From a virus: a DNA stretch of 33,462 bases. The stretch's first letter is position 1. Each line of letters begins with the position of its first letter. The translations under genes were made by a program, and so were the position numbers. The stretch lies in IMG/VR virus record IMGVR_UViG_3300022918_000027, positions 1 through 33,462 of that record; one strand, written 5' to 3'. The notes under the pieces are model-generated. The model was given only the letters and a program-made list of their open reading frames with translations, searched no databases and had not been told where the DNA came from. This document shows, piece after piece, positions 3,738 to 30,622 of this stretch.

Positions 3738-4187
3738 TCATCGCGGGCGCACCGAGTGAGGCTTAGGCGCCGTCTTGCCGCTCGGAAGAGTGCACGGTGC
3801 ACCGTCGGTCGCACCGCATCGCGGGCACGTGTCATTGAACTCGCCGAGGAGCTCCTCGACTTCGGCCTCATCCATCGCACGCAGTCGGTCCGTCTTTACT
3901 TCAACGTGGATGGAATCACTCGAATCGTTCGGGCGACGACCGAGCGTTACGACGGCGAGGTCGAACACGTCACCGCCCTCGGTGTGTACCTTCTCGAGAA
4001 GATCGACGATCGTGGCAGCGAGGAGCTTGAACGCTGCCGTACGTTCGGTCTCGTCGTCGAGCGCGCCACGCACCTCGGCCGGCAACGCGTAACGAGCGAC
4101 GATGAGGTCGTTCGACTTGTTGCCACGTGAGAACTTGCGGCGCTCACGTCGGTTGGCGCGCTTCGCCGGGTTGCCTGAGAGTCCCAT
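3738..4187 (-). CDS. small protein with C-terminal phage zinc-finger motif
   Basis: This 149-aa protein has a basic N-terminus (NRRERRKFSRGNKSND), a mainly helical middle, and a C-terminal motif CPRCGA-x4-APC-LPSG-x6-H-x2-R. That pattern matches the short phage zinc-binding domains that occur widely in actinophages (CPxCGAxxGxPCxxPSG...H). It probably binds nucleic acid, but target and role are unknown. Its ATG overlaps the stop of the upstream gene (TAATG on the - strand), so it is likely coupled to the 195-aa gene. Confidence 0.6.
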   Translation of the reverse strand: MGLSGNPAKRANRRERRKFSRGNKSNDLIVARYALPAEVRGALDDETERTAAFKLLAATIVDLLEKVHTEGGDVFDLAVVTLGRRPNDSSDSIHVEVKTDRLRAMDEAEVEELLGEFNDTCPRCGATDGAPCTLPSGKTAPKPHSVRPR

Positions 4188-5433: not shown

Positions 5434-5469
5434 GGGACGGCGGTGAAAGGTCAGTAACCCCGCCGCCCC
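5434..5469 (-). terminator. GC-rich hairpin in intergenic gap
   Basis: GGGACGGCGG (5434-5443) pairs with CCGCCGCCCC (5460-5469) with one mismatch and a 16-nt loop. It lies in the gap between the exonuclease gene and the ssDNA-binding candidate, with a T-poor 3' side on either strand. It may reduce read-through or stabilise mRNA ends. Confidence 0.35.
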
Positions 5470-7357: not shown

Positions 7358-7412
7358 GGTGTGACCTTTCTGTTATCGGGGTGAACGACCCGCGTAGCGG
7401 TGTCGGGAATCG

Positions 7413-7682
7413 TTAGAGAGTGGAAAAGATCGCGCACATCGCGATCGTGAGGCCGTAGCATCCGGCGAGGACGCCGACCGACACCACGGTATAGGCGATC
7501 ACCGACAGCGTCGCGCGCACCATTGGGCGGGCGAGAAGCTCTCGACCCGTGACCGCGATGCGGTAGCGGCGATCACTCTGGCGTGTGGACTTCGCGTACA
7601 CGGCGCGACGCTGGGCGAGAGCAAGCTCGTACGCGTCCTGAATCGTGGCCTCGGGTCGAAGATGAGTCGTGCGGTGGTTCAT
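7413..7682 (-). CDS. small C-tail membrane protein under operator control
   Basis: This 89-aa protein has a polar, basic N-terminus and one or two C-terminal membrane segments (residues about 57-88: LSVIAYTVVSVGVLAGCYG, then LTIAMCAIFSTL). It has no signal peptide and no known family. The start has a GAAAGG site. Its promoter carries two inverted copies of the ACTCGTTAGGT half-site, so it likely shares regulation with the surface-protein gene near 10404. A role at the host membrane (for example superinfection exclusion) is only a hypothesis. Confidence 0.65.
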   Translation of the reverse strand: MNHRTTHLRPEATIQDAYELALAQRRAVYAKSTRQSDRRYRIAVTGRELLARPMVRATLSVIAYTVVSVGVLAGCYGLTIAMCAIFSTL

Positions 7683-7700: not shown

Positions 7701-7746
7701 ACTGACCTAACGAGTCAAGACTATGACCATACTCGTTAGGTGTCAA
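7701..7746 (-). promoter_or_regulatory. - strand promoter with paired operators
   Basis: On the - strand: -35 TTGACA (7741-7746), 17-nt spacer, -10 TAGTCT (7718-7723). Half-site ACTCGTTAGG (7731-7740) fills the spacer and its inverted copy CCTAACGAGT (7706-7715) covers the expected transcription start. This layout is shared with the promoter at 10433-10476. The -35 overlaps the 3' end of the upstream gene. Confidence 0.65.
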
Positions 7747-10432: not shown

Positions 10433-10476
10433 ACCTAACGAGTATGACTCTAATTGCATAGTCGTTAGGTTGTCAA
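10433..10476 (-). promoter_or_regulatory. divergent control region: surface-protein promoter with operators
   Basis: For the - strand gene: -35 TTGACA (10471-10476), 18-nt spacer, -10 TAGAGT (10447-10452). Half-site AGTCGTTAGGT (10460-10470) lies next to the -35, and its inverted copy ACCTAACGAGT (10433-10443) overlaps the expected start of transcription. The same layout is seen at 7701-7746. The region also serves the divergent ribbon-helix-helix gene. Confidence 0.65.
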
Positions 10477-10490
10477 GTAGAGTCGTCGGC
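10454..10490 (+). promoter_or_regulatory. leaderless-type promoter of the RHH gene
   Basis: On the + strand: weak -35 TTGCAT (10454-10459), 18-nt spacer containing the AGTCGTTAGGT half-site, -10 TAGAGT (10478-10483), then 7 nt to the ATG at 10491. No ribosome site precedes the ATG, so transcription probably begins at or next to the start codon. Repressor binding to the spacer site would block this promoter as well as the divergent one. Confidence 0.5.
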
Positions 10491-10700
10491 ATGGCAGATA
10501 AGCGTGAACTTCGTTACCCCCGGCAGATCGGCGCGTTCATGTTGAGCGAGGAGCTTGACGACGCTATCCGCGCCGAAGCGCTCCGCCAGGGCGTCACCGT
10601 CGCCGAGGTCATCCGAGTCTGGCTCGAAGCCGGCCGGGCATGCCTACTCGACGCTTCACTCTCACGCGCCAACGGTGGCTCGGGCTACTTGCATCTCTAG
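10491..10700 (+). CDS. ribbon-helix-helix transcriptional regulator
   Basis: The ATG at 10491 gives 69 aa. ELRYPRQIGAFMLSEELDD then AIRAEALRQGVTVAEVIRV fit a short N-terminal strand followed by two helices, with the GVTVAEVIRVWLEAG helix typical of CopG/Arc-type dimers. Such proteins bind short inverted half-sites. The gene is next to a divergent promoter bearing inverted ACTCGTTAGGT-type sites, and it is the only + strand gene inside the early - strand block. It is therefore the likely regulator of those sites, with probable autoregulation. Its 3' end overlaps the HNH gene on the other strand by 39 nt. Confidence 0.7.
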   Translation: MADKRELRYPRQIGAFMLSEELDDAIRAEALRQGVTVAEVIRVWLEAGRACLLDASLSRANGGSGYLHL

Positions 10701-14425: not shown

Positions 14426-14509
14426 GAAACCCAAGACGCCTCCGCGCACCGCCTCGCCGAGCAGTGGCGGGCCTCGCAACGGCGGTGCGCCGAGTGCTAT
14501 ACTCGTTAG
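14411..14509 (+). CDS. possible 32-aa leader ORF
   Basis: ATG at 14411 is preceded by AAGGAAAGT and the frame runs to a TAG (14507-14509) directly abutting the GTG at 14510. The product would be 32 aa, MTLVIETQDASAHRLAEQWR followed by 12 more residues ending AECYTR. The abutting stop and start would allow coupling, but the same DNA also holds the -10 box and operator of the next gene. It could be a real small gene, a leader peptide or chance. Confidence 0.3.
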   Translation: MTLVIETQDASAHRLAEQWRASQRRCAECYTR

Positions 14510-14511
14510 GT
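14495..14511 (+). promoter_or_regulatory. extended -10 promoter overlapping the third ACTCGTTAGGT site
   Basis: TGC-TATACT (14495-14503) is an almost ideal extended -10. CGTTAG follows, then GTG at 14510, so the transcript would begin at the start codon. The half-site ACTCGTTAGGT (14501-14511) spans the end of the -10 and the start point, where a bound regulator would block initiation. Confidence 0.6.
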
Positions 14512-16109: not shown

Positions 16110-17672
16110 GTGACCCCCGACACACGGCTTGACGCGTACCTGCTCAAGCTCGCCAAGCGCATGCGCAAAGTCAAGCGCGCGCTTACTAAGACGGGGCGTC
16201 CCTTCGCCGAGGGTGAGCTCGACTCGCTCGTACGCCGCACCGTCACCGAGGCCGACCCGCTCGCCTTCGCGCTGATCTACCTCTTGCACCACCTCAAGAG
16301 CGGCCTCAACCACGACGGCGACGTCACCCTCTCCGACGTTCATTGGGCGTGGGTGAATCGCGCTAAGGGGTGGATGACAGCGCCGACCGAACCGTACGAG
16401 TCGCGACACGCCGAGGTCGGCCCGCGCGACGTCGGTAAGTCGACGTGGAACTTCTTGATCCTGCCGATGTGGGCAGCCGCGCACGGGCACGTGAAGTTCG
16501 CCGCCGCCTTCTCGTCGACGCCGACACAGGCTGAGAATCACCTCGCATCGTTCAAGGCTGAGCTCGACAACAACGTGCTCCTTCGCGCCGATTACGCCAC
16601 ACTCTGCGAGCCTCGTACCCGTGGGCGGGGTCAGGTCGCCGCTGACCGGGTCTCGCTCTATCACGCCAAGAGTGGCTTCGTGTTCGCCGCGGCCGGCATG
16701 GACTCGTCGAACCTCGGTATGAAAGTCGGCGCGTTGCGACCCGACCTCATCGTCCTCGACGACATCGAGCCACACGAGGGGCAGTACTCGGCGGCCCTCG
16801 CACGCAAGCGACTCGGCACCCTCCTCGACGCGATCCTCCCGCTGAACATCTACGCCCGCGTCGTGCTCGTCGGTACTGTCACGCTCGAGGGATCCATCGT
16901 TCACCAACTCGTCAAGAGCGCGAAAGGCGAGCAGCTTAGCGACGACGAATCATGGATCGCCGAGCAGCGTTTTATCGCCCACCACTACCCCGCGATCATC
17001 GAGAACGACGACGGGACCAGGCGAAGCGTATGGCCTAGCAAGTGGTCGCTCGCGTTCCTCGAGTCGATCGAAGGCACGCGCACCTACGCGAAGAACTACG
17101 CCAACGACCCGCTCGGTGCCGACGGCGACTATTGGACGCCTGACCTGTTCCTGCACGGCGACCTTCCCGGCGTGTCGCGTCGCGTCATCTCGATCGACCC
17201 GAACGTCACGCAGAAAGCGACGAGCGACTACACGGGTATCGGCGTCGTCGGCTGGGCGCCGAGCACCAACCGTTGCCGGGTTGACTTCGCGACTCAGGTC
17301 AAGATGCAACCCGACAAGCTCCGCGACCACGTGCTACTACTCATCGCCGAGTACCGCGTTGGGCTGCTCATCATCGAGGTCAACCAGGGCGGTGACTTGT
17401 GGCTCAAGGTGTTCCACGACATGCCGATACGCGTGAAGGTCATTCACCAATCCGAGCCGAAAGAGGTGCGCGCCGCCGACGTGCTGCACCACTACGAGCT
17501 CAAGAAGGTCGTGCACGCGAAAGGTCTCGGGATTCTCGAGGGGCAAATGGTCGCGTTCCCGAACGCACCGCACGACGACATGGTCGACGCGGTCGGCACG
17601 GCGGTGCGCTTCTTCCTCTCACGCAAACGCAAACAGAGAACCGGCGCGGAACGACAGACGTATATCTCATGA
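16110..17672 (+). CDS. terL: terminase large subunit (ATPase-nuclease)
   Basis: This 520-aa protein is the DNA-packaging motor. The ATPase domain has Walker A GPRDVGKST (104-112) and Walker B LIVLDDIE (213-220). The nuclease domain has SIDPNVT (D363), LIIEVNQGG (E423) and HDDMVDAVG (D489/D490, D493), the usual three acidic clusters. The length is normal. It acts with the portal and small terminase at the head vertex. The GTG start follows a -10-like box rather than a ribosome site. Confidence 0.95.
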   Translation: MTPDTRLDAYLLKLAKRMRKVKRALTKTGRPFAEGELDSLVRRTVTEADPLAFALIYLLHHLKSGLNHDGDVTLSDVHWAWVNRAKGWMTAPTEPYESRHAEVGPRDVGKSTWNFLILPMWAAAHGHVKFAAAFSSTPTQAENHLASFKAELDNNVLLRADYATLCEPRTRGRGQVAADRVSLYHAKSGFVFAAAGMDSSNLGMKVGALRPDLIVLDDIEPHEGQYSAALARKRLGTLLDAILPLNIYARVVLVGTVTLEGSIVHQLVKSAKGEQLSDDESWIAEQRFIAHHYPAIIENDDGTRRSVWPSKWSLAFLESIEGTRTYAKNYANDPLGADGDYWTPDLFLHGDLPGVSRRVISIDPNVTQKATSDYTGIGVVGWAPSTNRCRVDFATQVKMQPDKLRDHVLLLIAEYRVGLLIIEVNQGGDLWLKVFHDMPIRVKVIHQSEPKEVRAADVLHHYELKKVVHAKGLGILEGQMVAFPNAPHDDMVDAVGTAVRFFLSRKRKQRTGAERQTYIS

Positions 17673-17673
17673 G

Positions 17674-17702
17674 TTGACGGAACGTCGACGAGTCGTTATG
17701 TT
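17674..17702 (+). promoter_or_regulatory. sigma70-type promoter downstream of terL
   Basis: TTGACG (17674-17679), a 17-nt spacer, then TATGTT (17697-17702) form a good promoter match. Transcription would start around 17708-17710, immediately before the predicted hairpin-forming sequence. Confidence 0.5.
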
Positions 17703-17793: not shown

Positions 17794-17874
17794 GAGACAA
17801 GCCGGGTGTCGTCGCTGGTTGCAGTCTAAGAACGAGGCGTCGCTACACGCCTACCCCGTCAAGGGCCACCCGTC

Positions 17875-17890
17875 TGGTATCCTCGCCGTC
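17875..17890 (+). promoter_or_regulatory. extended -10 (leaderless) promoter of the SGNH gene
   Basis: GTCTGGTATCCTCGC is followed by CGTC and the ATG. Almost the same sequence precedes the portal gene (19571-19588). TG-G-TATCCT is an extended -10, and no ribosome site is present. Confidence 0.5.
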
Positions 17891-19540
17891 ATGGCGACCA
17901 CTGTGAACGTAACCCTCACCATTGCACCGGCGACGGTTGTCACGGTTGGAATCGATGAGTATTACGACCTGCTCCGACAGAACCTCATCTACTCCGTGGT
18001 CGGCGGCGGCCCGGTAGACCGCCCCGACTTTAGCGACGAGCAGTACGCCGAACTTGAGGATCCGGCCGGGCTATTCGGTAAACACCTCGGCAAGAGTCTT
18101 GGCAGCGATGGAACGCTTGGGCTCAAAACGTCCCTTGATTCCAACTACGGTACGCATCCCGTAGGTATGGACTTTGTCGACGGAACGCCGAACACACGGC
18201 GCTCTACGCTAGTGCTCAGCGCACCGAACACGACTGTGGCATCGGGCAGCGCGATCGACTACGCCCAGCGGGTCCAGGTGCTACTGCCCGTCAAGACGAC
18301 GCGCTGGCGCTTCCGCATTGCTAACCGAAATATTCTCGCTGGCACAAGCCTCACCTCCGCGCTTGTGTGCACTGACATGTATCTCGGCGCACCCGCTGCA
18401 TCGGCAACCTATGTAGCGGGGGGTCGGTGGAGCGGGTCATTCGTTTCCGCCCCTGCCAAAGTTCTTTCTGGCTTCTCCGTCCCGACCGATGGCTCTGATT
18501 ACGTATCTCCGTGGGTGACAGATTCGAGCAAGCAATTCCAGCCCTATGAGGCCGCGATGCTGTCCTACGGCCTCACGGCCGCAACAGGCGGAACTGGGTA
18601 CGCGCGCGGTGCATCTGAACAATGGGCGTTCAAGGTCGGTGGATCTGCCGAGTTCGCCTCCACCACTCTCGCCGCTGCAACCGTTGGTCGCTCGGGCAAC
18701 TGGGGCGACGTGCGGATCGAGTACGAATACACCGAAGACGTGCCGATCGTCGCTGTCGTAGGAACGTCACTCGACTGGGGTTACGGCGATGGCGACATGA
18801 CCACGCTGCAAAATGGCTGCCTGGCTCACGAAGCTTGGCCGGTCGCGGCCGGATTGCAGGGGCGGTTTGTCGCGATCAACCTCGCGATTCCTTCGGCGGT
18901 CGCCGCCAACTTCGGGGCTGCAAACCTGTCGAGCTTTACTCGCGTGGATTGGGCAACGACCGTTCCCGATGTCGCTGTCGTAGCTGGGTTTACAAACGAT
19001 GTTGGCGCGTCCCGCTTCTCGACCATGACCGCGATTCTGACGACCGTCGCTGTGCTCAAGTCCCTCGGAGTGAAGCGCATCGTGCTCGCGACACTCCCGC
19101 CTCGAGGGGACATCATCACCGGGACTGTTGGTTCACTTGCGGCCGCAGCGTCCTCGGGTGCCACTTCAGTTTCGTCAACTATCTCAGTGGCCAGTGGCCA
19201 GGGCTTCCAGATTGGCACTGGTCGCACGCAGCAAGTAGTGGCGACAACGGGTGCCCCGACCGGATCAGGACCATACACGATACCCGTACCGGCGCTATCG
19301 GCAGCACACGCCAGCGGCGAAGTTGTTTACAGCGGATCAGAACTAAACCGCCGCCAGATCAACGACTTCATCCGGCAAGTGCCACAGGGGGTGCATCGAG
19401 TTCTCGACTTCGATCGTGAGCTTGCCGCTACTCCCGGCGCAAGCGTGATGGACCCTAATTACGCGAGCGCCGACACGCTGCACATTCTCCGAGCCGGGGC
19501 TCAAAAGCAAGCGGATATAGCTGCCGCGCTCGGTCGGTAA
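17891..19540 (+). CDS. SGNH-hydrolase structural protein
   Basis: The ATG at 17891 gives 549 aa. Residues 1-285 look like beta-rich virion protein. An SGNH/GDSL esterase domain follows: block I VVGTSLDWG (S293), block III AGFTNDVG (N369, D370) and block V ADTLH (D528, H531). Residues about 410-482 are an inserted beta module (GATSVSSTISVASG, then SAAHASGEVVY) seen in many phage surface proteins. The enzyme probably de-esterifies host surface glycans. Its place between terL and portal, away from the tail genes, is unusual. Confidence 0.75.
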   Translation: MATTVNVTLTIAPATVVTVGIDEYYDLLRQNLIYSVVGGGPVDRPDFSDEQYAELEDPAGLFGKHLGKSLGSDGTLGLKTSLDSNYGTHPVGMDFVDGTPNTRRSTLVLSAPNTTVASGSAIDYAQRVQVLLPVKTTRWRFRIANRNILAGTSLTSALVCTDMYLGAPAASATYVAGGRWSGSFVSAPAKVLSGFSVPTDGSDYVSPWVTDSSKQFQPYEAAMLSYGLTAATGGTGYARGASEQWAFKVGGSAEFASTTLAAATVGRSGNWGDVRIEYEYTEDVPIVAVVGTSLDWGYGDGDMTTLQNGCLAHEAWPVAAGLQGRFVAINLAIPSAVAANFGAANLSSFTRVDWATTVPDVAVVAGFTNDVGASRFSTMTAILTTVAVLKSLGVKRIVLATLPPRGDIITGTVGSLAAAASSGATSVSSTISVASGQGFQIGTGRTQQVVATTGAPTGSGPYTIPVPALSAAHASGEVVYSGSELNRRQINDFIRQVPQGVHRVLDFDRELAATPGASVMDPNYASADTLHILRAGAQKQADIAAALGR

Positions 19541-19588: not shown

Positions 19589-21202
19589 ATGGCGAACCGA
19601 CCCGACGAACTCCCGCAAATCCTCGACGACCTCGCCGCGGGGTGCAAGGTGATCGACGACCGGCACGCCGACTACGTCAAGGCGAAGGCGTACAAAGAGG
19701 GCGACGTCAAGGAGATGACCGGCACGAACCGGCTCATCCGCAAGGTGCTCACCATGACCGCCGAGTCGCACAAGCTCGCCTTCGCGGGCATCCCGGTCAC
19801 GGCGTTGTTCGACAAGATCAACCTGTCCGGCATCACGACCGACAACGAGGCCGCGACCAAGGCCATCGCCGACGCGTTCGAACGTGACGACCTCGAGGAT
19901 GAGGCCGACGACTACCAGGTGAAAGCCGGTATGTTCGGCGACTACTACCTCATTATCGACCCGCTCGAGCAAGACGAGAGCGGCAAGGCTACCGACCTCA
20001 CAACCGTCGGCGCGTCGCCCCTCTCGTCGGCAATGGTATACTCGAAGAAGGACAACCGCACCGCTCGCTTCGGGGTACGCCGCTGGAAAGCTGGCACCGC
20101 CGCGGCGCCCGAGTACAAGGCGCTCGTGTACTACGACGACTGCACGGTTGCTCTGACCTCGGCCACCGAGAAGCCCGAGATGTTCGAGCCCGACTACGAG
20201 TACGACGAGAACGGTGTCGCGGTCGAGAACTCGCACATCGTTCCCCACCTCGGCGGCCACAAGCTGCTCGTGCACTTTGCCGTCGACGACAAGCCGTACG
20301 GCCGCCCCGTGCACATCAACGCGTACGGCCCACAAGACGCGATCAACAAGAAGCATGCGACCTCCCTGGCGAACGACGAGCGCATCGGTTGGCCGTCGCG
20401 CTACGCCATCGCCGACCCGAAGGCATCCGTTGAGGATGACGACTTGGGCGAGGACTTCGGCGACGACGGTCTCCCCGTCGACACCGACCACCCGGTTACC
20501 GGAACGGGTGCCGACGGACAGAGCAACGTGACCGGCGACCGCTCACGTTCCCTCGCCGACGAGCCTGGCGCGATTACGAAACTGTTCGGCGTGACAAGTG
20601 TCGGCACCTTCGCCGCCGCATCGAACGACGGCTTTATCGCCGGCCTCGACTGGGAGGTGCGCGCAATGGCGACCCTCACCGGCACACCGATCGCCGAGTT
20701 CGACGAGAGCGCCAACCCGCCGAGCGGTGTCGCCCGGCGCCTCGCGAACACGCGCATCAACAACCACGCGAAGAAGGTCATTCGCTCACTGTCCCGCTCG
20801 TGGCGCACGTGGGGCGAAACGGTCCTCGCCGTGCAGGGGATCCCGGCCGCCAAGGTCGTCGTCGCGTACGAACCCGTGCAGACCGAGACCGACTCCGAGG
20901 GTCTCGCCCTCGTGACGGCCAAGGTCAAGGCGGGCGTGCCGATCGCGCGTGCACTCGTCGAGGCTGGCTATCCCGAGGCCGACGTCAGTGAATGGTGGCC
21001 TGACGAGAGCGCGTTGCTTCCACCCGACCTCTGGCCACCGTTCGCCGAAGCCGTTGCGAAGCTCACGACAGCGAGCGCTCTCGGCGCGCCGGTCAACCTC
21101 GCCGACCTGTTCGGTGCGTATATGTCGGGCATCACTCGTGAACCCGCACCGACACCCGCGCCCGTCCCGGCGCCTGTCGTCGAACCGCCCGTAGCCGAGT
21201 AG
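19589..21202 (+). CDS. portal protein (SPP1-like)
   Basis: This 537-aa protein matches phage portals in size and position after terL. Recognisable parts are the N-terminal LAFAGIPVTALFDKINLSG, GMFGDYYLIIDP, KLLVHFAVD, and PYGRPVHINAYGPQDAINKK with a long helix, then a Pro-rich tail (APTPAPVPAPVVEP). It forms the dodecameric ring at the packaging vertex and contacts TerL and the connectors. It is followed by the MuF-like gene after 4 nt. Confidence 0.85.
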   Translation: MANRPDELPQILDDLAAGCKVIDDRHADYVKAKAYKEGDVKEMTGTNRLIRKVLTMTAESHKLAFAGIPVTALFDKINLSGITTDNEAATKAIADAFERDDLEDEADDYQVKAGMFGDYYLIIDPLEQDESGKATDLTTVGASPLSSAMVYSKKDNRTARFGVRRWKAGTAAAPEYKALVYYDDCTVALTSATEKPEMFEPDYEYDENGVAVENSHIVPHLGGHKLLVHFAVDDKPYGRPVHINAYGPQDAINKKHATSLANDERIGWPSRYAIADPKASVEDDDLGEDFGDDGLPVDTDHPVTGTGADGQSNVTGDRSRSLADEPGAITKLFGVTSVGTFAAASNDGFIAGLDWEVRAMATLTGTPIAEFDESANPPSGVARRLANTRINNHAKKVIRSLSRSWRTWGETVLAVQGIPAAKVVVAYEPVQTETDSEGLALVTAKVKAGVPIARALVEAGYPEADVSEWWPDESALLPPDLWPPFAEAVAKLTTASALGAPVNLADLFGAYMSGITREPAPTPAPVPAPVVEPPVAE

Positions 21203-27838: not shown

Positions 27839-27854
27839 CACAACCCCCCGATAC

Positions 27855-27887
27855 GTGGCGGCGTCGATTCCCCCTCGGCGCCGCCAC
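27855..27887 (+). terminator. hairpin after the major tail gene
   Basis: GTGGCGGCG (27855-27863) pairs with CGCCGCCAC (27879-27887), extendable by three pairs with one G-U, leaving a 9-nt loop. There is no T tract. It resembles the hairpin after the capsid gene and may regulate the output of downstream tail genes. Confidence 0.6.
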
Positions 27888-27918
27888 ACCTCACCCCGAT
27901 AAGAGAAAGGCTCTAACC

Positions 27919-28347
27919 ATGAGCACCGCAACCCCGACAATCAAGCACACTCCCGAGGAGGCGTGGCTCGCTGGCGAGCGCGTCACCATCTTCTTCATCG
28001 ATCACGAGGTGCTCGACGATGACGGCAACGTCGTCTACGAGGATGACCCGACCGACTCGGCCGACGCAGCACGCGACGAGGACCGCGAGATTCGCCAGGT
28101 TCCCAAGGTCGAGCGTGTCGAGTACACGATGCCGAAGAAACCGAACGCTGGCATGGCCCTCAAATACCTCAAGAGCACCCGCACGATGGGCGTCGAGGCA
28201 GCGATGGGCTGGCTCTTTGAGCTCGCCATTGGGGGTGCCGCGTACGAGGAGCTCAGCAACGAGACCGACTTCGACATCGACGACCTGGCAACACTCATGC
28301 AGACCGTCGTAACCCGCGCGCTCGGCGGGCTCGAACCCCCAAAATAG
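27919..28347 (+). CDS. tail assembly chaperone (G-like)
   Basis: The ATG at 27919 has GAGAAAGG upstream and gives 142 aa; a longer upstream in-frame start is not needed. It is acidic and helical (TPEEAWLAGERVTIFFIDHE, GMALKYLKSTRTMGVEAA, DDLATLMQTVVTRAL), typical of gpG-type chaperones that keep the tape measure soluble. Its last codons CCC CCA AAA TAG contain a -1 slippery heptamer, so a G-T fusion is expected. Confidence 0.85.
   Translation: MSTATPTIKHTPEEAWLAGERVTIFFIDHEVLDDDGNVVYEDDPTDSADAARDEDREIRQVPKVERVEYTMPKKPNAGMALKYLKSTRTMGVEAAMGWLFELAIGGAAYEELSNETDFDIDDLATLMQTVVTRALGGLEPPK
28338..28344 (+). other. -1 programmed frameshift site CCCAAAA
   Basis: C CCA AAA (28338-28344) is an X XXY YYZ heptamer in the frame of the G-like chaperone, immediately before its TAG. 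Slipping back one base continues as IAFAER into the frame of the 91-aa ORF ending at 28637. This is the classical tail-chaperone mechanism. Confidence 0.8.
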
Positions 28348-28637: not shown

Positions 28638-30622
28638 CCGTGCTACTGGCCGAGGCGACTGTTGCCGTCAAGACCGACACGTCAAGCGTCGGCCCCGACG
28701 CCGAGAAGGGAGTAAAGTCCCAACGCGGCGTATTCTCCCGCATCGGCACCGTGGCGGGAGGCATCATTGCAGCCCAGCTTGTGACGAAAGGCGTCGCCGC
28801 CGTCAAGTCGATCTTCACTACGGGACTCGGCGAGGCAAAGGACGCCTCCGCGCTGAACGCCCAGCTTGCCGCGGCCATCACGTCGACAGGCAACGCGGCC
28901 GGCGTGAGCGTTAGTTATCTCAATGAGAGAGCCTCCGCGATACAAGCGATGAGCGGGCAGACTGACGACTCGATCGCCGCGGCACAGTCGTTGTTGCTCC
29001 GCTTCCAGTCGATCAACAACAACGGTCCCGACAAGATCTTTGACCGGGCCACCCTCGCCGCCGCGAACATGGCGGCGCGCCTCGGCGGCGACGCCTCGAG
29101 CCAGGCGACCAAGCTCGGCATCGCGCTCGAGTCACCCGAGAAGGCAGTCGCCAAGCTCGCCCGTTCCGGCGTCACGTTCAGCGAAGATCAGAAAAAGATG
29201 ATCGACGCGCTCGTCGAGACCGGCGACAAGGCTGGCGCGCAAAAGATCATCCTCGACCAGTTGGACGCAACCTATGGTGGTGCCGCTGAGAGCGCCGGTA
29301 AGACGCTGCCCGGCATGCTCGCACGCATCCGCCGCGGCTATGAGGACGTTACACAGGTCGTCACCGAGGCGTTTATGCCTGTCGTTCTTCCGGTGCTCGG
29401 GTGGTTGGCTGACCGCGCCGAAACGGCGGGTGATCGCGTCAAGTCCGTCACGGACAATATCAGCAGCTTCTTTGGCGACATCGACATCGGTTCGTTGGTC
29501 GAGACTATTCAGCAGTTCTCGCCGCTCATGCTCATCATCGAAACGATCAAGCCTCTACTCCCGCAACTCGCGGACTCTTTCAAGCAAATCCTTCCGATCA
29601 TCAAAGACGTTGCGACGTCGTTCGGGTCGACGCTTGGCACCGTGCTCAGTGAGGACGTCGTGCCCGCACTGACGAACGTTCTCGAGGCGCTCGTTCCCCT
29701 CATTCCGTTGCTCGCTGAGTCTCTCGGCGACGCGCTTATCAAGCTCATGCCCGCGTTCTCTGACCTCATTGTCGCGGTGCTGCCGCTGCTGCCGCCGCTC
29801 ACCGACCTCTTGCTTTCCATCATTCCGCCGTTCGCGGCGCTGCTCACAAACGTCACGATCCCCGCGCTCGTGTGGCTCGTTGAGGTATTCGCCGGGGCTG
29901 TCACGGCAGCGACCGACCTCGCCGATTACTTCGCTGGCGACACGTCGCTATCGGACCTGGCCGACCGCGTCAACGCACTGGGTGGCCCGTTCGGGAAGTT
30001 CGTGAAGTGGATCGAAGGGCTCATGCTCGCGATCTGGAATAACTTCATTGCGCCCGTCATCATCAACTTCAAGAAGTTTCAACAGGTAGTCGCCGACGTC
30101 GTGGGTAACGTGCTCGGCTTCTTCGGGAAGATTACGACGACCGTCGGCAAGGTCGGCGAGAAGATCGGTACGTCGATCGGCGGTGCCGCAACATTCATCG
30201 GTAGCACCTTCGGCAACATTGTGAACTTCGTCAAGGGCGGAATCAACAACGTAATCAGCCTGGTCAATAAGGGAATCGCTGCACTCAACAAGTTCAAAGT
30301 CACGCTGCCCGACGCCCTCGGCGGCATGACGATCGGCCTAAGCATCCCGTCGATACCGATGCTCGCTCGAGGTAGCAACAACGCACCCGACACATTCATC
30401 GCTGGCGAGAAGGGGCCGGAACTCATCACGGGTGCGGCCGGTTCGACGGTGCGGCCGTACTCCGCAACGCAAGACATTCTCGCGCAAGGCGGCGGGACCA
30501 CCAACCACTTTGCCGCGGGTGCGTTTACGATCGACCTGTCGAAAATCAAGTCGCTACAAGACCTCATCGACCTCATCGATACACTCAATCAAACGATTCG
30601 CACCAACCCGACCGGGAGTTAG
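28634..30622 (+). CDS. tape measure protein (662 aa, short)
   Basis: The ATG at 28634 overlaps the T-like stop (ATGA). The 662-aa product has an Ala-rich N-terminus, a hydrophobic central section (SPLMLIIETIKPLLPQLADS, VLPLLPPLTDLLLSIIPPF, IPALVWLVEVFAGAV) and a C-terminal AGEKGPELITG, a usual tape measure motif. Using about 0.15 nm per residue, the tail would be roughly 100 nm. The length relation is established for this family; the number is an estimate. Confidence 0.9.
   Translation: MTVLLAEATVAVKTDTSSVGPDAEKGVKSQRGVFSRIGTVAGGIIAAQLVTKGVAAVKSIFTTGLGEAKDASALNAQLAAAITSTGNAAGVSVSYLNERASAIQAMSGQTDDSIAAAQSLLLRFQSINNNGPDKIFDRATLAAANMAARLGGDASSQATKLGIALESPEKAVAKLARSGVTFSEDQKKMIDALVETGDKAGAQKIILDQLDATYGGAAESAGKTLPGMLARIRRGYEDVTQVVTEAFMPVVLPVLGWLADRAETAGDRVKSVTDNISSFFGDIDIGSLVETIQQFSPLMLIIETIKPLLPQLADSFKQILPIIKDVATSFGSTLGTVLSEDVVPALTNVLEALVPLIPLLAESLGDALIKLMPAFSDLIVAVLPLLPPLTDLLLSIIPPFAALLTNVTIPALVWLVEVFAGAVTAATDLADYFAGDTSLSDLADRVNALGGPFGKFVKWIEGLMLAIWNNFIAPVIINFKKFQQVVADVVGNVLGFFGKITTTVGKVGEKIGTSIGGAATFIGSTFGNIVNFVKGGINNVISLVNKGIAALNKFKVTLPDALGGMTIGLSIPSIPMLARGSNNAPDTFIAGEKGPELITGAAGSTVRPYSATQDILAQGGGTTNHFAAGAFTIDLSKIKSLQDLIDLIDTLNQTIRTNPTGS

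Follow-up and report, generated by a model that had tools for sequence, protein, structure and literature searches.

Is the small protein encoded beside an inverted repeat at positions 10433-10700 a local switch, or a regulator of the whole phage? The locus lies in a 33,462-nt stretch of viral DNA (IMG/VR record IMGVR_UViG_3300022918_000027, positions 1 to 33,462; hereafter the window), which represents a Microbacterium-type phage. The original prediction was that a ribbon-helix-helix (RHH) regulator and a three-site operator set control a small regulon of a wall-anchored protein, a small membrane protein, and a 156-aa protein.

Half-sites on promoters of the window

The 11-mer ACTCGTTAGGT occurs in exactly four copies in the window, and a fifth half-site, AGTCGTTAGGT, which is present once, deviates from it by one mismatch (Table 1). 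In 300 first-order Markov simulations, 0.02 copies of ACTCGTTAGGT were expected, and for the core TCGTTAGGT five occurrences compare with 0.17 expected and a simulation maximum of 2. The half-sites are arranged as two inverted pairs on leftward promoters, with centre-to-centre distances of 26 and 27 bp; the remaining copy lies on a rightward promoter that is leaderless. The half-site at 7731-7741 overlaps the last bases of an upstream ORF; the other four are non-coding, in a window of which 5.4% is non-coding. The repeats are real, exceed chance, and form a larger set than first described.

The predicted inverted pairs near 7705-7740 and 10433-10470 and the single site at 14501-14511 are present, the 10460 arm being one mismatch off, and their location on promoters was borne out for P1L and P2L (both - strand) and for the extended -10 and start of P3R (+ strand). 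A weak match at 7408-7418, suggested earlier as an extra site, was dropped because its score of 8.4 bits is at background level. The fourth site, AGTCGTTATGT at P4, is new here and was absent from the original set. Across IMG/VR, the exact operator pattern had no match, and pattern scans for TTGACA plus half-site and for ACCTATYAGGTGACG gave nothing usable among the matches listed, one per contig.

Table 1. The RHH gene, promoters, and half-sites of the window
Feature	Position	Strand	Remarks
RHH protein gene, 69 aa	10491-10700	+	+ strand gene inside leftward gene array
P1L promoter, TTGACA-18-TAGAGT	10476-10447	-	Promoter scan; heads leftward genes 10404 to 7736
P1 half-site ACTCGTTAGGT	10433-10443	-	Covers start of leftward transcript
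P1 half-site AGTCGTTAGGT	10460-10470	+	Leftward-promoter spacer and region of divergent RHH promoter
P2L promoter, TTGACA-17-TAGTCT	7746-7718	-	Read by eye; absent from promoter-scan list
P2L half-site ACTCGTTAGGT	7705-7715	-	At transcript start
P2L half-site ACTCGTTAGGT	7731-7741	+	Adjoins -35 box
P3R extended -10, TGCTATACT	14495-14503	+	Read by eye; runs into GTG at 14510, leaderless
P3R half-site ACTCGTTAGGT	14501-14511	+	Spans -10 box to GTG start
P4 promoter, TTGACG-17-TATGTT	17674-17702	+	Promoter scan; 3' of large terminase gene
P4 half-site AGTCGTTATGT	17691-17701	+	15.1 bits; overlaps -10 box; own-phage match rank 1/12

Operon extents were inferred from gene order. The first of the P1L genes (10404-7736) codes for a secreted protein whose end is of the LADTG sorting type, and small genes follow. 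P2L precedes an 89-aa membrane protein (7682), the exonuclease (7357-5597), and further genes up to endonuclease VII (3587-2778), P3R the 156-aa protein and then the terminase genes, and P4 the gene at 17819-19540 and then structural genes. No site of at least 13 bits was found upstream of the primase operon in the motif scan of the window. The part of the original prediction that concerned an RHH regulator with an operator set is well supported by comparison among phages, and the putative regulon would comprise most transcription units and not a few surface genes. The three-gene regulon was too narrow, because those genes are merely the first in their operons and because of the fourth promoter.

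GTTACTGACCT, common to P1L, P2L, and position 5448, was rejected as an operator; it is a leader sequence, and no half-site is found at 5448. GGTTACTGACCT at 5446-5459 is shared with the P1L and P2L leaders, but lies on the opposite strand and lacks a half-site. Another candidate for a weak operator is the inverted pair of ATTAGGT type (ACCTAATGGCG ... ACGCATTAGGT) downstream of P4 (17748-17783). A 14-nt inverted repeat (CTCCGCGCACCGCC / GGCGGTGCGCCGAG, 27 nt apart) is located just 5' of P3R at 14440-14494. At 2711-2721, five bases beyond the stop of the last rightward gene, ACTCGTTACGT scores 16.1 bits and is followed by a hairpin-like stretch (2764-2800).

The RHH protein and its conserved position

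Pfam RHH_1 matched the 69-aa protein weakly (E 0.007, below cut-off). In the AlphaFold model (nine relatives in the alignment, mean pLDDT 80), helices are predicted at 20-33 and 37-60, and no strand is assigned ahead of them in the monomer; RHH proteins form an intertwined dimer and have a strand at the N terminus before the two helices. In a Foldseek search of the PDB, NikA and CopG topped the list and Arc followed at a lower rank (best E about 0.3, probabilities reaching 0.98, TM by target about 0.8). The predicted RHH (CopG/Arc/MetJ) fold of the monomer is well supported by this model, in agreement with the identity first proposed for the small protein. By eye, the RHH proteins of OscarSo, Wyvern, and Isperia are extended at the C terminus by a stretch resembling a second helix-helix segment.

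A DNA-level search yielded no close phage record. Relatives were reached through the exonuclease and terminase: OscarSo, Wyvern, and Isperia, of about 33 kb, and 21 contigs of IMG/VR; as IMG/VR queries, the RHH protein and the primase returned no relative, whereas the terminase did. The window terminase (16110-17672) additionally has relatives in the Streptomyces satellites MiniFlayer and Mulchroom and in elements of Streptomyces and Micromonospora genomes. An RHH protein was found in eight of the ten larger IMG/VR records searched, and the two that gave no match were a fragment of 24 kb and a record of 42 kb that is more distantly related. RHH or terminase searches supplied the 12 records analysed; in every one of them, the RHH gene lies on the + strand between exonuclease and primase, the latter placed by annotation or order and not by tblastn in Wyvern, Isperia, and one IMG/VR record (G003). 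OscarSo gp47 carries the RHH annotation. In Wyvern (29003-29419) and Isperia (27854-28282) the gene is unannotated and runs antisense to the segments encoding the N termini of gp43 and gp42, respectively, both of which look misannotated. Site spacing and the number of sites per promoter vary among the phages.

The genomic position also bears on a reading of the protein as the orphan antitoxin of a toxin-antitoxin pair, for which a weak ParD-like profile match speaks. As a lone + strand gene among - strand genes, mostly without a co-directed partner in the records, and with sites spread across the genome, it is highly improbable that the RHH gene has this function. A type II toxin-antitoxin system and a ParB/omega partition system were both rejected because the partners are missing: both RHH neighbours in the window lie on the opposite strand with no co-transcribed toxin, and there is no ParA among the scanned leftward-arm proteins, nor are the sites in arrays.

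Phage-specific operator words

The best ungapped match of each RHH intergenic region at its own P2L, P3R, and P4 was compared with the matches that other phages' RHH regions gave at those places. With some regions delimited after motifs had been seen, and that of one record (G006) widened to include its repeats, own matches summed to 715 versus 522 ± 27; none of 20,000 label permutations reached 715, and the own match ranked first in 21 of 32 tests. The P2L share of this result is inflated by common leader sequences, the own best match there often being a GACCTTTCGG-type leader, whereas the shares of P3R (238 versus 168 ± 11, 0/20,000 permutations) and P4 (199 versus 154 ± 9.5, 1/20,000) are not. 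The test failed for OscarSo (ranks 11 and 6) and for P4 of Wyvern, though words are visible by eye at the latter. In most phages, the word at the RHH gene appears to recur on the other promoters of the same phage and not on those of other phages.

A more distant RHH protein, FuzzBuster gp72, is about 40-42% identical to that of the window over aligned residues. FuzzBuster, a Microbacterium phage of 54.8 kb, belongs to the family Hodgkinviridae (PMC12451628). Its word ACCTATYAGGT, allowing at most one mismatch, gave 14 strand hits at ten places, compared to 0.22 expected in the 50 kb searched: gp72 has two of these places and the terminase gene is followed by one; others are in gaps, and two copies lie inside coding sequence (2225 and 6554). 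Microbacterium phage SM23 contains an unannotated, homologous RHH gene (20617-20823; 86% identical) and six sites, all in annotated gaps, including those at the RHH gene, after the terminase, and upstream of the exonuclease. Several FuzzBuster copies lie within -35/-10 spacers, and in both phages the palindrome commonly fills the spacer, as in TTGCAC-GTCACCTAATAGGTGGGG-TATAGT of SM23. In a small RHH-less control of two phages and one motif, neither the RHH gene nor ACCTATYAGGT was present in 50 kb each of Quhwah and MementoMori, which are members of the same family. The anticipated co-occurrence of RHH gene and repeat in related phages holds for ACCTATYAGGT, the sole motif checked in both directions. 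The FuzzBuster RHH protein had no relative in bacterial genomes.

That this word is present with the RHH gene and absent without it argues against binding of the sites by another phage or host protein, with the RHH gene merely adjoining one of them. Furthermore, all phages of the set have the RHH gene at P1, and its product is the sole small regulator-type protein among the leftward-arm proteins scanned. A different binder is therefore improbable, although a putative DNA-binding zinc-finger protein is encoded at 3738-4187 and intergenic repeats without a known binder occur in other Microbacterium phages (PMC7302621). RHH identity and operator similarity co-vary (Mantel rho 0.38, p 0.003), in favour of the RHH protein as binder, but the correlation drops to 0.24 (p 0.03) as a partial on terminase identity and to 0.21 (p 0.055) without the two close pairs. 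This weakening would also be consistent with a different binder, and the co-variation gives just modest support to the view that the operators track the RHH protein and not overall kinship of the phages.

For the Microbacterium phage clusters EC, EG, and EI, motifs without known function that recur between genes, upstream of coding sequences, have been described (PMC7302621). No relative of the window RHH protein was found in the searched stretches of Quhwah (EC), MementoMori (EI), and Hyperion (EG); another binder is thus expected for those motifs, and such repeats need not imply an RHH protein.

Proposed role and comparison with known systems

Taken at the four promoters, the sites suggest that the RHH protein is probably an autoregulated multi-promoter repressor of the phage. 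RHH dimers would bind the TCGTTAGGT half-sites, two dimers together occupying inverted half-sites spaced by 26-27 bp, and host RNA polymerase would be blocked at P1L, at the divergent promoter of the RHH gene, at P2L, and at P3R, and more weakly at P4. We infer steric repression from the sites over spacer, -10, and start point, and autorepression from the site at the RHH promoter. The varying site positions could also suit an activator or a concentration-dependent dual regulator, like AvtR, which both activates and represses (PMC5569661). Such a protein in place of a plain repressor seems unlikely here, as nearly all sites lie within the polymerase footprint and the palindrome fills the -35/-10 spacer in FuzzBuster and SM23.

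Repression of nearly all lytic operons would likewise fit a temperate or episomal phage whose repressor serves lysogeny, immunity, or plasmid maintenance, and many dispersed sites are used by L5-type repressors (PMC6550527). A scan of leftward-arm proteins, which are part of the window proteins (many of these have no assigned function), turned up neither an integrase nor a partition gene, and the annotated products of the relatives include none. For that reason, the prophage-like maintenance switch considered in the original prediction is unsupported. The terminase relatives in genome records come from Streptomyces, Micromonospora, Kitasatospora, and one archaeal MAG; none was found in Microbacteriaceae, and the RHH gene is absent from the fetched stretches of all of them. 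Additionally, most Microbacterium phages are predicted to be lytic (PMC7302621). Taken with these points, an immunity or maintenance function appears unlikely.

Since its own and most main operon promoters carry the word and relatives keep the layout with different words, the RHH protein appears to act as a master repressor that sets timing across the phage and not just as a local switch. Early RHH protein would hold the other operons down during replication start, and would later be diluted or outnumbered by new genome copies, leading to release. Late-gene timing is favoured as its role because operators are placed on structural and recombination operons and no integrase or partition gene turned up in the leftward-arm proteins scanned or in the annotated relatives; a role in lysis timing or exclusion is a more speculative option. 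We also put forward, as a rather doubtful extension, that the RHH protein of a virulent phage serves as a genome-copy counter. Autoregulation would fix its amount while replication multiplies the operator copies, so that terminase and structural operons would be released in step with phage DNA; a word changing by phage together with its RHH protein would keep co-infecting relatives from cross-repression.

Transcription timing in Microbacterium phages is little known, and motifs in several clusters have no known binder (PMC7302621). The gain is a named candidate protein with its operators and a testable map in the cultured phages OscarSo, Wyvern, Isperia, FuzzBuster, and SM23; in three of these five, the RHH gene lacks an annotation. 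With so many protein-operator pairs that have diverged, the set could also be useful for studying specificity change in RHH strands. A genome-wide RHH operator set with phage-specific words appears to be new for bacterial tailed phages, as judged from a limited open-access literature search, in which the lack of a report is no proof of novelty.

Arc and Mnt of phage P22 are RHH repressors acting on inverted operators in one immunity region, whereas the candidate operators described here are on promoters across the genome. The mycobacteriophage L5-type repressor is not known to be an RHH protein. It resembles the present system in belonging to actinobacteriophages and in having dispersed sites whose motif varies by phage; L5 stoperators, however, are asymmetric, mostly in one orientation, and lysogeny-related (PMC6550527), in contrast to the inverted pairs or palindromes in both orientations found here on promoters, with a putative RHH regulator and no lysogeny genes found. 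An L5-type stoperator system was rejected, since the window and FuzzBuster sites are not asymmetric sites of one orientation. For omega (ParB) of plasmid pSM19035, likewise an RHH protein, a single short word is repeated across several promoters, that of its own gene among them, but there 7-10 contiguous heptads form arrays that double as a centromere with ParA (PMC9499535), whereas isolated pairs or single sites, and no ParA, were found here.

The closest working parallels are SvtR (SIRV1) and AvtR (AFV6), which are small RHH regulators encoded by archaeal viruses. Besides repressing its own gene, SvtR binds a few other promoters of its virus, with the strongest binding at that of a structural (tail fibre) gene; for AvtR, eight potential sites are known that the genus conserves (PMC5569661). 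Their promoters are of the TBP/TFB type and no sequence relation was detected, whereas sigma-70-type promoters, tailed phages, and operators on most operon heads are involved here. By analogy, the window protein would nevertheless work like these established viral RHH regulators: a small viral RHH protein putatively represses its own gene and a few other virus promoters, with a site on its own promoter (the 10433/10460 pair; also in FuzzBuster and SM23) and further sites on other viral promoters that are kept in relatives.
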